Origin: Gammaproteobacteria bacterium
GTDB taxonomy: Bacteria > Pseudomonadota > Gammaproteobacteria > PS1 > Pseudothioglobaceae
Length of the DNA stretch: 58,819 nucleotides
NCBI GenBank assembly: GCA_029243595.1
Contig: JAQWRQ010000019.1
Coordinates: 1 to 58,819, forward strand
Direction: 5' to 3'
Position 1 is the stretch's first letter. Every line of letters begins with the position of its first letter. Below are positions 48,771 through 58,766 of the stretch, in pieces. The notes under the pieces were generated by a model. It did no database searches and had not been told where the DNA came from. It worked only from the letters and a program-made list of their open reading frames with translations. Made by a program: the position numbers and the translations under genes.

Positions 48771-50474
48771 TCAAAATAGGAAATATCTCTGTGCCAATGC
48801 AAGCTCCTCTGCCGGCTCACAAGTTAATAAAACACCATCCGCCTTTACCTCGTAAGTTTGAGAGTCAACCTCAATATTTGGCTGGTAGCTATTATGAATC
48901 ATTGATGATTTTGTAACAGATCTACAATCTTTAACCGAACTTATTAATGACTTAAGTCCGAGTTGATCAACAATACCATTTTCAATACTTGCTTGAGATA
49001 AAAAAGTCATTCTAGTATTTAGTCTAGCTGCACCTAATGCACCAAACATCTTTCTATAATGAACTGGTTGAGGTGTTGGTATCGATGCATTAGGATCCCC
49101 CATAGGTGCTGCTACAATCATGCCTCCTTTAATAATAACTCCAGGTTTCGCTCCAAAAAACTTGGGCTTCCATAATACTATATCAGCTAATTTACCCATT
49201 TCTATTGATCCAACTTCATGCGATATTCCATGTGCAATTGCAGGATTAATCGTATATTTAGCCACATACCTTTTGGCACGAATATTATCATTATTAGGCA
49301 CATCTCCCTCTAATTGCCCACGTTGAATTTTCATTTTATTAGCTGTTTGCCAAGTTCTAGTAATTACCTCTCCAACTCGACCCATTGCTTGTGAATCTGA
49401 AGAAATCATAGAGAATGCGCCTAAATCGTGCAAAATATCTTCTGCTGCAATTGTCTCTCGTCGGATACGTGATTCAGCAAATGCAACGTCTTCTGCTATG
49501 GAAGGATCTAAATGATGACAGACCATTAACATATCTAAATGTTCATCTACAGTATTAATAGTGTATGGGCGTGTTGGATTTGTAGAGGACGGCAGTACAT
49601 TACTGTAACCACACGCCCTAATAATATCTGGGGCGTGCCCTCCACCAGCACCCTCTGTATGATAAGTATGTATAGTGCGGCCTTTCAAAGCGGCTATTGT
49701 GTCTTCAACAAAACCTGATTCATTTAATGTATCTGTATGGATTGCAACCTGAATATCATAGTTTTCAGCAACCGACAAACAATTATCAATAGCCGCTGGC
49801 GTTGTGCCCCAATCTTCATGAAGTTTTAACCCCATTGCGCCTGCCAAAACTTGCTCTTCTAATGGCTCAGGTAAACTTGCATTGCCCTTACCCATAAATC
49901 CCAAATTCATCGGCAAGTCCTCAGCTGCCTCTAGCATTCTGTGTATATTCCATGGGCCTGGAGTACATGTTGTAGCATTAGTACCTGCGGAAGGACCTGT
50001 GCCACCACCCAGCATTGTTGTAACGCCAGACATTAATGCATCTTCAACTTGTTGTGGGCAAATAAAATGAATATGTGCATCAACACCTCCCGCTGTTACA
50101 ATCTGACCCTCTGCAGCAATAACTTCAGTGCCTGCGCCAATAGATATGTCAATATTTGGCTGTATATCAGGATTACCAGCCTTTCCTATACCTGCAATAC
50201 GCCCATCTTTAATACCAATATCTGCTTTAATAATTCCCCAATGATCGAGAATAAGGGCATTGGTTATAACAACATCAACAATATCTTTACTGCATAATTG
50301 ACCCTGCCCCATGCCGTCACGAATAACCTTTCCGCCACCAAATTTGACTTCTTCTCCATAAGTCGTTAAGTCCTGCTCAACCTCAATAAAAAGTTCAGTG
50401 TCACCTAAACGAACTTGATCTCCCACTGTGGGGCCATACATTTCTGCATAGGCCTTTCTAGAAATAGTACTCAT
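48771..50474 (-). CDS. ureC: Urease catalytic subunit alpha
   Basis: UreC holds the dinickel centre that hydrolyses urea. The 567-residue protein keeps the active-site set at the numbering of the Klebsiella enzyme: His134 and His136, carbamylated Lys217 (in Gly-Leu-Lys-Leu-His-Glu-Asp-Trp), His246, His272, Asp360, and the mobile-flap Cys319 and His320 (in Met-Val-Cys-His-His-Leu). No key residue is missing, so the enzyme should be active. The start overlaps the ureAB stop (ATGA). Confidence 0.98.
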
Positions 50475-54791: not shown

Positions 54792-56405
54792 TTAATCTCC
54801 TGCAGATCTACCTTTTTGAGGGAATAGACCCCTAGGTCGCTTTTGAATAAACAAAATAATAAAAATTAAGATTAAAACTTTAGCTAGTACTGCACCAACC
54901 GAAGGTTCCATAAATTTGTTAAGAATACCCAAACCAAATCCACTGATTAATGTTCCCCACAAGTTACCAACACCACCAAAAACAACAACCATGAATGAAT
55001 CAATAATATATGCTTGTCCAAGATTCGGGCCAACATTAGTTAATTGAGACAAAGCCACACCTGCAATACCAGCAACACCTGACCCAAGTCCAAATGTCAT
55101 AGCATCTACCCAATTCGAGCGAACACCCATGGCTCTTGCCATATTTCTATCTTGCGAAACTGCTCTTACTTGAAGGCCTAATGAAGTTTTCTTTAAAACC
55201 ATTACAAGCGCTGCAAACACCAATAAACAAAAAACGATAATGTAGAGTCGATTCCAAGTTAGCGACAAAATACCATTAATCTCTAGAGCTCCAGACATCC
55301 ATTCCGGTGTTTCTACTGATCTATTTAACGGAGAGAAAACACTTCGAACAACCTGTTGTAAAACCAAACTCACACCAAATGTGGCAAGAAGAGTTTCTAA
55401 AGGTCTACCATGTAGATGTCTAATAATGCCAATTTGAATGAGTATCCCAACAAGCCCTGATACAACAAATGCTGCTGGAATAGCAACAAATATTGACATT
55501 CCAATATAATTCGGCATTAACAACTGGATAACATAGGTTGTATAAGCACCTAGCATAATCAACTCACCATGTGCCATGTTAATAACACCCATCACGCCGA
55601 AGGTAATAGCAAGTCCAATTGCAGCCAAGATAAGCACTGATCCAAAACTAACCCCAAAAAATATTGTCTCTAAATTTTTAAAAAAACCAATTTTCGAATC
55701 AATATTCTTTAATGCTGTGTCCGCCTCTAACTTTACTTCCAAATTTGGATCATTGTCTCGAGATTTTGTTAGTTTATTCTTAACAATCGGCTCTAGATTT
55801 CCCTCTAACGCCTTAATGGCTTTTATTCTAATGGATGGATCTTTATCGTTTAATTGATATATATTCATTAAGACCAGCATCGAATCGCGAACTTTTTCAC
55901 TCTTCTCATCCTTAATCAATACTTTTATCCTTTTAAACACATCAATATTGATGTCTTTATATGTATTTTTTACCGCTTTCAACCTAACCGACTCGTCAAC
56001 ATGAGTAAGGCTTAGCATTGAAAGCCCAAATTTTATTTTTTGACGTATCTTATTATTAATACCAACTTTCTTTAATTGGCGTTTTGAGAACTTACCGAAA
56101 GAATTACCATTTAATAAATCTTTAGCTAAATACTCTTTATTTTCCTTAATAGCATAAACAACTTTTTTGTTACTTTTAATATAAAAAACTTTTCCCTCTA
56201 ATAGAGATTCAAGCACAAACTCAACCTTATGGCTGTCATTCTGAATAATCTGTTCAACAATTTGTAACTTTGTTCGAAGCTTCTTTGTAGTTAATTGATT
56301 AATGGTATTTTGAAAGTCATCATTACTTGCCAAACTCTGAGATGAGAATACAAGACTAACGATCAAAACTAGAATGTATGAAAAAATCTTCATTTTATTT
56401 ATCAT
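54792..56405 (-). CDS. urtB: Urea ABC transporter permease UrtB with periplasmic N-terminal domain
   Basis: UrtB is the LivH-like permease. The 537-residue protein has a signal peptide (about 5-26), an N-terminal helical, HEAT-like domain (about 28-235, with repeated Arg-Leu-Lys-Ala-Val-Lys and Arg-Ile-Lys-Ala-Ile-Lys blocks), then the membrane domain from about 245. There Gly-Val-Met-Gly-Val-Ile-Asn-Met-Ala-His-Gly-Glu and Gly-Arg-Pro-Leu-Glu-Thr-Leu mark the family. The long N-terminal part occurs in many UrtB proteins. A 12-bp hairpin separates the gene from urtA. No Shine-Dalgarno is seen. Confidence 0.93.
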   Translation of the reverse strand: MINKMKIFSYILVLIVSLVFSSQSLASNDDFQNTINQLTTKKLRTKLQIVEQIIQNDSHKVEFVLESLLEGKVFYIKSNKKVVYAIKENKEYLAKDLLNGNSFGKFSKRQLKKVGINNKIRQKIKFGLSMLSLTHVDESVRLKAVKNTYKDINIDVFKRIKVLIKDEKSEKVRDSMLVLMNIYQLNDKDPSIRIKAIKALEGNLEPIVKNKLTKSRDNDPNLEVKLEADTALKNIDSKIGFFKNLETIFFGVSFGSVLILAAIGLAITFGVMGVINMAHGELIMLGAYTTYVIQLLMPNYIGMSIFVAIPAAFVVSGLVGILIQIGIIRHLHGRPLETLLATFGVSLVLQQVVRSVFSPLNRSVETPEWMSGALEINGILSLTWNRLYIIVFCLLVFAALVMVLKKTSLGLQVRAVSQDRNMARAMGVRSNWVDAMTFGLGSGVAGIAGVALSQLTNVGPNLGQAYIIDSFMVVVFGGVGNLWGTLISGFGLGILNKFMEPSVGAVLAKVLILIFIILFIQKRPRGLFPQKGRSAGD

Positions 56406-56462: not shown

Positions 56463-57752
56463 TTAGTAGTTCTGACCAGAACACTTTGCAGTTTTAACAT
56501 TGTAGTTGCCACAACTTAAAGGCTTTCTCCAATCTGCAATTAGATCCTTAGAACCAGGCAAGAAATCTGACCATGCATCACCTGCAACTAAACCTTCTGT
56601 AGACCAAACAGTTTCAAACTGACCATCAGCTTGAATCTCTCCGATTAATACTGGCTTAGTAATGTGATGATTAGGCATCATGGCAGATACACCACCTGTT
56701 AAGTTAGGCGTAGTTACACCAATGATAGCATCTTGAACCGCATTAGCTTCAGTGGTACCAGCCTTCTCAACCGCCTTAACCCACATATTAAAACCAATAT
56801 AGTGAGCTTCCATCGGATCATTTGTTACACGTTTGTCATCTTTAATGAAGTCTATCCATTTTGCAATGAATTCATCATTTTCGACTGCATCAGCACTCAT
56901 GAAGTAGTTCCAAGCAGCTAGATGTCCAACTAATGGACCTGTATCCAAACCAGACAATTCTTCTTCACCTACTGAAAATGCGATAACTGGGATATCAGAT
57001 GCCGAAATACCTTGATTACCAAGCTCTTTATAGAAAGGTACATTGGCATCGCCATTAATCGTTGAAACTACAGCAGTCTTTTTGCCGGTAGATCCAAATG
57101 TTTTAACATCAGAAACGATTGTTTGCCAATCGGAATGTCCAAACGGTGTGTAGTTAATCATAATATCAGACGATGCTACACCCTTTGCTTCTAAGTACGC
57201 CTTAAGAATCTTGTTAGTTGTACGTGGATATACATAGTCAGTTCCTGCTAATACCCAACGCGTAACACCCATATCATTCATAAGGTAGTCAACAGCTGGA
57301 ATAGCTTGTTGGTTTGGAGCTGCACCTGTATAGAACACATTCTTAGATGATTCCTCACCTTCGTATTGTACTGGGTAGAAAAATACGCTATTTAGTTCTT
57401 CAATAACAGGCAATACCGATTTTCTAGATACTGATGTCCAAGAGCCAAAAATTGCATCAACGTTATCATTCTCAATTAACCCTCTAGCTTTCTCAGCAAA
57501 TAAAGGCCAATTAGACGCTGGATCTACAACAACAGCTTCCAATTGCTTACCTAGAACGCCGCCTTTTTTATTTTGATCTTCGATCAACATTAACATTGTA
57601 TCTTTTAATGTTGTCTCACTAATTGCCATGGTGCCAGAAAGTGAGTGTAGGATACCTACCTTGATTGTCTCAGCTGCAATTGCTGATGTAGAGATAATAG
57701 CAGCTAAACCAGCCGCCACTACAACACTACTTATACTTTTATATAGTTTCAT
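56463..57752 (-). CDS. urtA: Urea ABC transporter substrate-binding protein UrtA
   Basis: UrtA is the periplasmic receptor that brings urea to UrtBC. The 429-residue protein has a signal peptide ending Ser-Ala-Ile-Ala-Ala near 27. The mature N terminus Ile-Lys-Val-Gly-Ile-Leu-His-Ser-Leu-Ser-Gly-Thr-Met-Ala follows. Phe-Gly-Ser-Trp-Thr-Ser-Val-Ser-Arg-Lys and Gln-Tyr-Glu-Gly-Glu-Glu-Ser match UrtA/FmdD proteins. GGAG precedes the ATG. As first gene of the block it carries the operon leader with the tandem repeats at 57821-57990. Confidence 0.95.
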   Translation of the reverse strand: MKLYKSISSVVVAAGLAAIISTSAIAAETIKVGILHSLSGTMAISETTLKDTMLMLIEDQNKKGGVLGKQLEAVVVDPASNWPLFAEKARGLIENDNVDAIFGSWTSVSRKSVLPVIEELNSVFFYPVQYEGEESSKNVFYTGAAPNQQAIPAVDYLMNDMGVTRWVLAGTDYVYPRTTNKILKAYLEAKGVASSDIMINYTPFGHSDWQTIVSDVKTFGSTGKKTAVVSTINGDANVPFYKELGNQGISASDIPVIAFSVGEEELSGLDTGPLVGHLAAWNYFMSADAVENDEFIAKWIDFIKDDKRVTNDPMEAHYIGFNMWVKAVEKAGTTEANAVQDAIIGVTTPNLTGGVSAMMPNHHITKPVLIGEIQADGQFETVWSTEGLVAGDAWSDFLPGSKDLIADWRKPLSCGNYNVKTAKCSGQNY

Positions 57753-57820
57753 TTTTTTTACTCCATTTATTTATAAAAAACAACTAAACACTATTGTTAA
57801 GTCGTCTATTTTTTAGCCAA

Positions 57821-57880
57821 AAAAAAATGCTCGCAACTTTTCTAAAATAATTTAGAAAAATAAACGAACATCTTTGTTCA
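57821..57880 (-). repeat. Terminator-like repeat unit A
   Basis: This 60-bp unit is 57/60 identical to 57931-57990. On the minus strand it forms a hairpin: an 11-bp outer stem with two G-U pairs, a 5 by 4 internal loop, a perfect 9-bp inner stem (57838-57846 with 57851-57859) and a four-base loop. A T run follows. It would lie in the 5' leader of the urtA mRNA if transcription starts in the spacer. Confidence 0.85.
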
Positions 57881-57881
57881 A

Positions 57882-57909
57882 ATTTTACAATCTTCAGTAA
57901 TTGTAAAAT
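57882..57909. promoter_or_regulatory. Palindrome in the repeat spacer (possible operator)
   Basis: ATTTTACAA and TTGTAAAAT are perfect 9-bp inverted arms separated by 10 bases. The palindrome covers the predicted -10 and transcription start of the minus-strand promoter-like sequence, as a repressor operator would. No regulator gene is adjacent. Confidence 0.5.
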
Positions 57910-57927
57910 GGCAATAACTTTTTACAA
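57900..57927 (-). promoter_or_regulatory. Candidate urtA promoter
   Basis: TTGTAA (complement of 57922-57927), 16 bases, then TACAAT (complement of 57900-57905) fit sigma-70 at four and five of six positions. Transcription would start near 57893, giving a leader of about 140 bases containing repeat unit A. Confidence 0.42.
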
Positions 57928-57930
57928 GTC

Positions 57931-57990
57931 AAAAAAATGCTCGCAACTTTTCTAAATTACTTTAGAAAAATAAACGAACATCTTTATTCA
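57931..57990 (-). repeat. Terminator-like repeat unit B
   Basis: This is the second 60-bp copy, 110 bp from the first. Two of its three differences from unit A fall in the four-base hairpin loop and one outside the stems, so both stems are unchanged. It lies 90 bp after the MORN gene stop and may terminate that gene. Confidence 0.85.
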
Positions 57991-58079
57991 GGTTCTCTCA
58001 TCCAACTTTAGATAAAAGATTCGCTAATAATACACTGTTTTTTATTATAAATAAACAATATTAAATATAAATAATATAA

Positions 58080-58718
58080 TCACCCCAAAATCGCTTGTAT
58101 CATTTCCTTATCAAAGAACATTTTTTCATCAATCAGACTGCCATTTTCGCTATATGACCTCTTAAACTTAGGCTTGCCATGTTTATATTTAGTCTCTTCA
58201 AATAGACCTCCATCTTTGTAATAACTCCTTAGGTAACCATGCAACAAGCCATTTTTATAGTCTTCTTCTTTTTTAATGTTGCCACTCTCATACCAAACTC
58301 TGGACAAACCTTCAAGTGTGTTGTTAGTAAAAAATCTTTCAAGTTGTTTATTGCCATTAGAATAGTAGCGAATACCTCTGCCATTATTAAGGTTATCGCT
58401 CATCTCCATACGACCCATCAAAGTACCATCTTCAAAGTAAATTGAAATGGTTCCATTAAGCATACCATCTCTAAAATAACCAACAGATTTTAGGACGCCA
58501 GACTTATAGAAGACTTTTTCTTGACCATGAAGTAAGCCATTAAAGTAATCTTTAGAAGACTCAACGGCATTATCGCCCCAATCTTCATTAATAACTTTAA
58601 TATTGCCTGTGTAAGGTTTGTTAGTGTTTAAATCTAACAATAAACCATCTTTAAATATGGTTGGACTAGCATTGGCAAATGAATGCAGTAGTAGAATAAA
58701 TAAAATTATGTTTTTCAT
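58080..58718 (-). CDS. Exported MORN/YwqK-like repeat protein
   Basis: The 212-residue protein has a signal peptide (hydrophobic 4-12, cleavage after Ala-Asn-Ala near 17). About six MORN-like repeats follow from residue 58, of the type Asp-Tyr-X-Asn-Gly-Leu-Leu-His-Gly and Tyr-Tyr-X-X-Gly-X-Leu. Such YwqK-type repeats are found in surface or periplasmic proteins and in some toxin-immunity systems; no function can be given. Its first 16 coding bases lie inside a perfect inverted repeat shared with a divergent gene. Confidence 0.85.
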   Translation of the reverse strand: MKNIILFILLLHSFANASPTIFKDGLLLDLNTNKPYTGNIKVINEDWGDNAVESSKDYFNGLLHGQEKVFYKSGVLKSVGYFRDGMLNGTISIYFEDGTLMGRMEMSDNLNNGRGIRYYSNGNKQLERFFTNNTLEGLSRVWYESGNIKKEEDYKNGLLHGYLRSYYKDGGLFEETKYKHGKPKFKRSYSENGSLIDEKMFFDKEMIQAILG

Positions 58719-58766
58719 ATGGTCGAATATTGTATCTCATATTAGACCATATGAAAAACATAATTT
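58703..58766. repeat. Perfect 22-bp inverted repeat over two divergent start codons
   Basis: 58703-58724 is the exact reverse complement of 58745-58766, with a 20-base spacer. Each arm holds GACCAT followed by ATG and the first codons (Met-Lys-Asn-Ile-Ile) of an outward-facing reading frame: the MORN gene on the left and a partial frame on the right. Confidence 0.95.

Follow-up and report, generated by a model that had tools for sequence, protein, structure and literature searches.

The minus-strand segment 58019–57819 of the window (the whole stretch of 58,819 nucleotides analysed) is, with high confidence, the 5' leader of the urt–ure cluster, comprising two complete ANTAR-responsive transcription attenuators arranged in series. 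The urea-uptake and urease proteins are probably made only when a nitrogen-related ANTAR protein is active. This reading rests on the anatomy of the leader, compensatory changes in its stems, the loop and spacing rules, the single ANTAR protein of the genome, and the presence of modules at other nitrogen genes, all taken from sequence. The leader precedes urtA (56463–57752, minus strand), the first gene of the cluster, coding for the substrate-binding protein of a urea ABC transporter (TIGR03407, E 9.8e-169, above the cut-off) and having a GGAG ribosome-binding site at 57761–57764 (minus strand). Downstream, on the same strand, lie urtB (54792–56405; TIGR03409, E 6.5e-127), coding for the transporter permease, and ureC (48771–50474; TIGR01792, E 9e-298), coding for the urease alpha subunit. 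UrtB carries an N-terminal extension of ca. 245 residues ahead of its permease domain.

Leaders of this kind are known. In the eut, nas, and ami leaders the ANTAR substrate consists of two hexaloop hairpins, P1 and P2, with A1 and G4 required in each loop and a linker of restricted length, and P2 alternates with the terminator (PMC3369931); in eutP the loops are spaced by 24 nt, from A29 to A53 (PMC3369931). Matches to the ANTAR target before urea and ammonium transporters were already described by Ramesh et al. 2012 (PMC3369931), and the ANTAR nitrogen regulon of Desulfotomaculum acetoxidans comprises 13 attenuators in six transcription units (PMC3369931), so that several attenuators per transcription unit have a precedent.

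Anatomy of the urtA leader

The original prediction, of two near-identical 60-bp units 110 bp apart, each forming on the minus strand a hairpin that runs into a T tract, was reproduced. The units are located at 57821–57880 and 57931–57990, are identical in 57 of 60 positions (95%), and lie 110 nt from start to start. In the minus-strand RNA each forms a hairpin of 12+11 bp followed by a U tract, with a folding energy of -22.3 kcal/mol (z -6.8) for the unit at 57821–57880 and -22.2 kcal/mol (z -7.2) for the one at 57931–57990, as compared with ca. -7 kcal/mol for shuffled sequences, of which none in 200 was as good. The plus-strand folds are much weaker (-10.2 and -8.5 kcal/mol), because G-U pairs turn into A/C mismatches, and the molecule under selection is therefore the minus-strand transcript. 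As had been noticed, two of the three differences between the units fall in the hairpin loop, here the terminator tetraloop (UUAU/GUAA), and none in the terminator stem; the third is a C/U difference in the 5' arm of P2, just outside that stem, where both bases pair with G.

The units themselves supply the 3' halves of two complete modules, in each of which a P1 hairpin comes first, and the order from the promoter to urtA is P1, P2/terminator, P1, P2/terminator (all on the minus strand). Module 1 comprises P1 (57994–58019), UCUUUUAUCU[AAAGUU]GGAUGAGAGA, whose stem shows compensatory changes, P2 (57976–57989), GAAU[AAAGAU]GUUC, the predicted antiterminator, and an intrinsic terminator of 12+11 bp with a U7 tract (57931–57985), which includes the 3' arm of P2 and constitutes most of the second 60-bp unit. 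A small hairpin, GACUU..AAGUU (GGCUU..AAGCC in one relative), is situated in the spacer at 57915–57931. Module 2 comprises P1 (57882–57909), AUUUUACAAUU[ACUGAA]GAUUGUAAAAU, whose A-U and U-A pairs are exchanged for G-C and C-G, respectively, by compensatory change in relatives, P2 (57866–57879), GAAC[AAAGAU]GUUC, again the predicted antiterminator, and a terminator of 12+11 bp with a U9 tract (57819–57875), which is most of the first unit. P2 thus reads GAAY[AAAGAU]GUUC in both modules, and since its 3' arm is also used by the terminator, the two structures are mutually exclusive. Both modules have the features of ANTAR leaders, i.e., two short hexaloop hairpins, A1 and G4 in both loops, a P2 overlapping the terminator, and a restricted P1–P2 distance: all four loops (AAAGUU, AAAGAU, ACUGAA, and AAAGAU) are of six bases with A1 and G4, and the distance from A1 to A1 is 23–24 nt. 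The four A1/G4 hexaloop hairpins, all in place, compare with 0.63 per shuffled leader.

The region between the units had been interpreted as a sigma-70-like promoter with a palindromic operator over the start. The sequence TTGTAA-N16-TACAAT is present at 57927–57900, but its hexamers are not conserved, the presumed -10 TACAAT reading TGCAAT or CGCAAT and the presumed -35 TTTAAA or TTTTTT in relatives, and the region contains seven promoter-like matches, fewer than the 11.2 of shuffled sequences. The supposed operator is the 11-bp RNA stem and hexaloop of the module 2 P1 (57909–57882), which covers the presumed -10 and in which, counting from the loop, pair 6 is A-U, G-U, or G-C, pair 7 U-A or C-G, and pair 8 U-A or U-G in this leader and its relatives. 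As the hexamers decay while the overlying sequence keeps its pairing, this element is an RNA stem, and a DNA operator or promoter between the units was rejected, as were sRNA genes in tandem, each with a promoter of its own, since the second of these promoters is not conserved. The promoter of the leader likely lies upstream of both units, with a putative -10 element TATTAT at 58032–58027 (minus strand); a -10-like TATNAT is aligned there in five of six leaders (TATTAT, TATAAT, TATTAT, TATCAT, and TATAAT).

No further copies of the units were found in the 1.1-Mb assembly of the organism, in which, beyond each other, they have only weak matches of 14–31 nt. This rules out a mobile element or a dispersed repeat standing beside unrelated genes, the latter having been named in the original prediction as a possible refutation. 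A phage origin was likewise rejected, no similar DNA having been found in phages. A search of Rfam gave no credible match, in agreement with the earlier remark that no known riboswitch fits; the sub-threshold matches were to irrelevant families and fell nearly all on an unrelated palindrome at 58703–58766. That palindrome, a 28-bp inverted repeat (96%) whose arms are separated by 8 nt, overlies the MORN-repeat gene's start codon at 58718.

Conservation among relatives

The bacterial family is probably Thioglobaceae (SUP05-like), to judge by gene content and genome size. UrtA homologues of 87–91% identity are encoded by six further family genomes, and in five of them (loci L017, L018, L019, L020, and L022) the double layout is found directly before urtA, with the P1 and then the P2 hexaloop hairpins in order in all six leaders that have it, the present one included. 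Upstream of the layout stands the MORN gene in the window, L017, and L018, and in L019, L020, and L022 this place is taken by a tRNA, a transporter-like gene, or other sequence; the layout is therefore to be assigned to urt rather than to the MORN gene. In the sixth genome, G003 (L021), no convincing module was detected in the urt leader (best match 15.6 bits, E 1.0), though it has urtA, the ANTAR protein, and modules elsewhere, so this control of the urea genes is not universal. The loops of the relatives keep G4. Position 1 of the P1 loop is G instead of A in both modules of L020 and in module 2 of L022 and L019, and the first P1 loop of L018 has one extra base. The second terminator of L019 (genome G002) shows no sequence resemblance, and its P2, GUAAAC[AAUGAA]GUUUAC, again shares an arm with the terminator.

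The modules were aligned by MAFFT without structure, and with the structure chosen after looking at these same sequences, 95.1% of the cells of P1 and P2 are paired in the 12 urt modules and eight pairs are changed on both sides. None of 500 shuffles reaches the observed pairing, and slid versions give 36–53%. For 25 modules the pairing is 95.6% and the covariation 0.865 vs 0.375. The covariation of the stems in relatives, proposed as a check of the original prediction, is thus borne out, and the strand-specific fold together with the compensatory changes upholds its claim of selection for RNA structure. The identity of the two units within a genome is 0.95, 0.92, 0.82, 0.95, 0.98, and 0.54 in the six leaders; in four of these (0.92–0.98) the resemblance between the two equals or exceeds that of any unit to its orthologue, which suggests gene conversion or repeated duplication.

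The ANTAR protein and its candidate regulon

The genome encodes one ANTAR protein, of the NasT/EutV/AmiR-like type, composed of a receiver-like domain and an ANTAR domain (E 6.8e-19), the nearest solved structures being those of Rv1626, EutV, NasR, and AmiR. RNA is contacted in EutV by R142, K143, K147, K149, E160, Y164, and M172 (PMC8934654), and in the alignment all seven residues are identical in the protein studied here. At the position of the EutV phospho-acceptor Asp54 the alignment shows Asn, a residue shared by all family orthologues read at this site; the acceptor Asp of a phosphorylation-activated regulator of the EutV type is therefore lacking, and phosphorylation there is unlikely to be the means of control. 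By analogy with NasS–NasT, in which a partner protein and not phosphorylation releases the regulator (PMC3795266), the protein may be freed by a partner. Its gene lies downstream of amtB and a CBS-domain gene and is not adjacent to urt; in relatives it is found within glnK–amtB operons. No ANTAR match was found in G015 and G023 (81% and 87% complete), which have the layout, possibly because contigs are missing.

The scan rule comprised P1, P2, and an overlapping terminator, with A1/G4 in the loops. In the whole window it gave exactly two matches, both in the urtA leader. In 231 kb made up of the window and the ANTAR-gene neighbourhoods it gave 20, against none for each of five altered loop rules; since ANTAR genes had partly guided the choice of that set, the fair background is 761 kb of other urtA loci, with three matches, one of them a known relative. 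The glnK(–amtB) leader of the organism has two modules in series, and a gene for a sensor-like protein of 311 aa preceding glnK has one. Genome-wide searches employed a covariance model built from all modules, which in this genome recovers these training members and one site outside the training set, before a nirB-like gene (E 0.008; L176, ca. 1500–1570; G000 C30:2486–2525). There, P1 has the loop [AATGGC] and P2 the loop [AACGAA], and the hairpin that P2 overlaps is not a terminator but covers the ribosome-binding site, which makes translational control possible. One or more module matches at E up to 0.5 were obtained in 58 of the family's 62 genomes, some of these matches being training sequences and the weak ones including some due to chance. 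The sites read singly in relatives, mostly pairs, lie before glnK, nirB-like, nitrate-reductase-like, nitrate-transporter-like, and porin-like genes, as named by our reading of the protein starts and not by a family search; in modules that the family has at other genes, the A1-to-A1 distance is 19–25 nt.

Two of the genes preceded by modules may be mentioned separately. The 311-aa protein (L169, G000 C54:1092–2024, minus strand), uncharacterised and adjoining glnK, has only a sub-threshold Pfam match, to YkuI_C; as an obligatory partner of the ANTAR protein it was rejected as universal, several genera without a full-length homologue keeping the ANTAR protein and the modules. The module before a porin-like gene in L212 (G003 C66:587) is ANTAR-like, and possibly links outer-membrane permeability to the nitrogen regulon.

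Proposed serial antitermination and its alternatives

From these comparisons we infer binding, antitermination, the direction of control, and the service of all sites by one protein. By default both terminators would form, transcription would end before urtA, and urt–ure would be off. The active ANTAR protein would bind the P1 hexaloop and then move to, or stabilise, P2, so that the terminator could not form, and RNA polymerase would have to pass two such checkpoints before reaching urtA. Scarcity of preferred nitrogen would switch the genes on, and two serial checkpoints may lower the leak and steepen the response.

It is very unlikely that the units are two ordinary intrinsic terminators, arisen by local duplication, which end transcription of the MORN gene and insulate urtA with no regulation. 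The strong hairpins with U tracts between two same-strand genes, and the near-identity of the units, which suggests duplication, would suit such terminators, but the upstream gene varies among relatives while both modules stay with urtA, and ordinary terminators need neither P1, nor A1/G4 hexaloops, nor a spacing of 23–24 nt, nor a like anatomy before glnK and nirB-like genes. We also consider it most improbable that the terminated short transcripts are sRNAs titrating the ANTAR protein by free P1 hexaloops, instead of attenuation in cis. Sequestration of EutV by EutX/Rli55 is on record (PMC8934654), and transcripts ending at module 1 or 2 would free RNAs whose P1 hexaloops, one or two in number, are accessible; yet the position next to urtA, the overlap of P2 with the terminator, and the recurrence before nitrogen genes are explained by cis attenuation alone.

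The layout put forward in the original prediction, i.e., an upstream terminator, a promoter with a palindromic operator, and an attenuator, has still less to recommend it: the promoter-like pair and the inverted repeat exist, but in relatives the former decays, the latter keeps its RNA pairing, and promoter-like matches are no more frequent than in shuffles. Of that proposal, attenuation before urtA is retained; the upstream unit is not a mere terminator followed by a separately controlled promoter, since both units are equivalent ANTAR-type attenuators with like modules at other nitrogen genes of the family. A pair of small-molecule riboswitches, to which a tandem structured leader ahead of a transport operon might point, can practically be discounted: Rfam offers no riboswitch or other known aptamer family, each "aptamer" would consist of two small hairpins only, and the leader is accounted for by the loop rule together with the linked ANTAR regulon.

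Two ANTAR-responsive attenuators in series thus remain the preferred reading, and the leader resembles those of eutP/EutV, nasF/NasR, and amiE/AmiR in the A1/G4 loops of P1 and P2, the P2–terminator overlap, the nitrogen genes downstream, and, for eutP, the loop spacing (24 nt vs 23–24 nt). It differs from them in having two complete serial modules with near-identical P2–terminator units, and in the G1 of some relatives' P1. Desulfotomaculum acetoxidans, which belongs to another phylum, likewise has several attenuators per unit in a nitrogen regulon, but here conservation of the double arrangement extends through a gammaproteobacterial family and to several operons. The regulator, like those of NasS–NasT and AmiC–AmiR, which a partner protein and not phosphorylation releases, couples a receiver-like to an ANTAR domain for the control of nitrogen-source genes; unlike them, it is encoded in a glnK–amtB operon, and its candidate targets include urea uptake. 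The newer parts are the conserved serial arrangement and the pseudo-receiver ANTAR protein, and an open-access literature search found no paper on leaders of this bacterial family.

A conserved design common to the family may be tentatively proposed, although we regard it as rather less than probable: a single ANTAR protein with a pseudo-receiver, whose own glnK–amtB operon is under its control, would have to win two antitermination decisions, independent and in series, per nitrogen operon. The response would be steep and low in leak, a partner and not phosphorylation would provide the signal, and gene conversion would keep the repeats alike. The findings assign a regulator, an RNA target, and a candidate regulon of urea, ammonium, nitrite, and nitrate genes to small-genome marine gammaproteobacteria. 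The control of urea use in these bacteria becomes a testable antitermination circuit, and the serial double attenuator offers a simple natural case of what two checkpoints gain over one.
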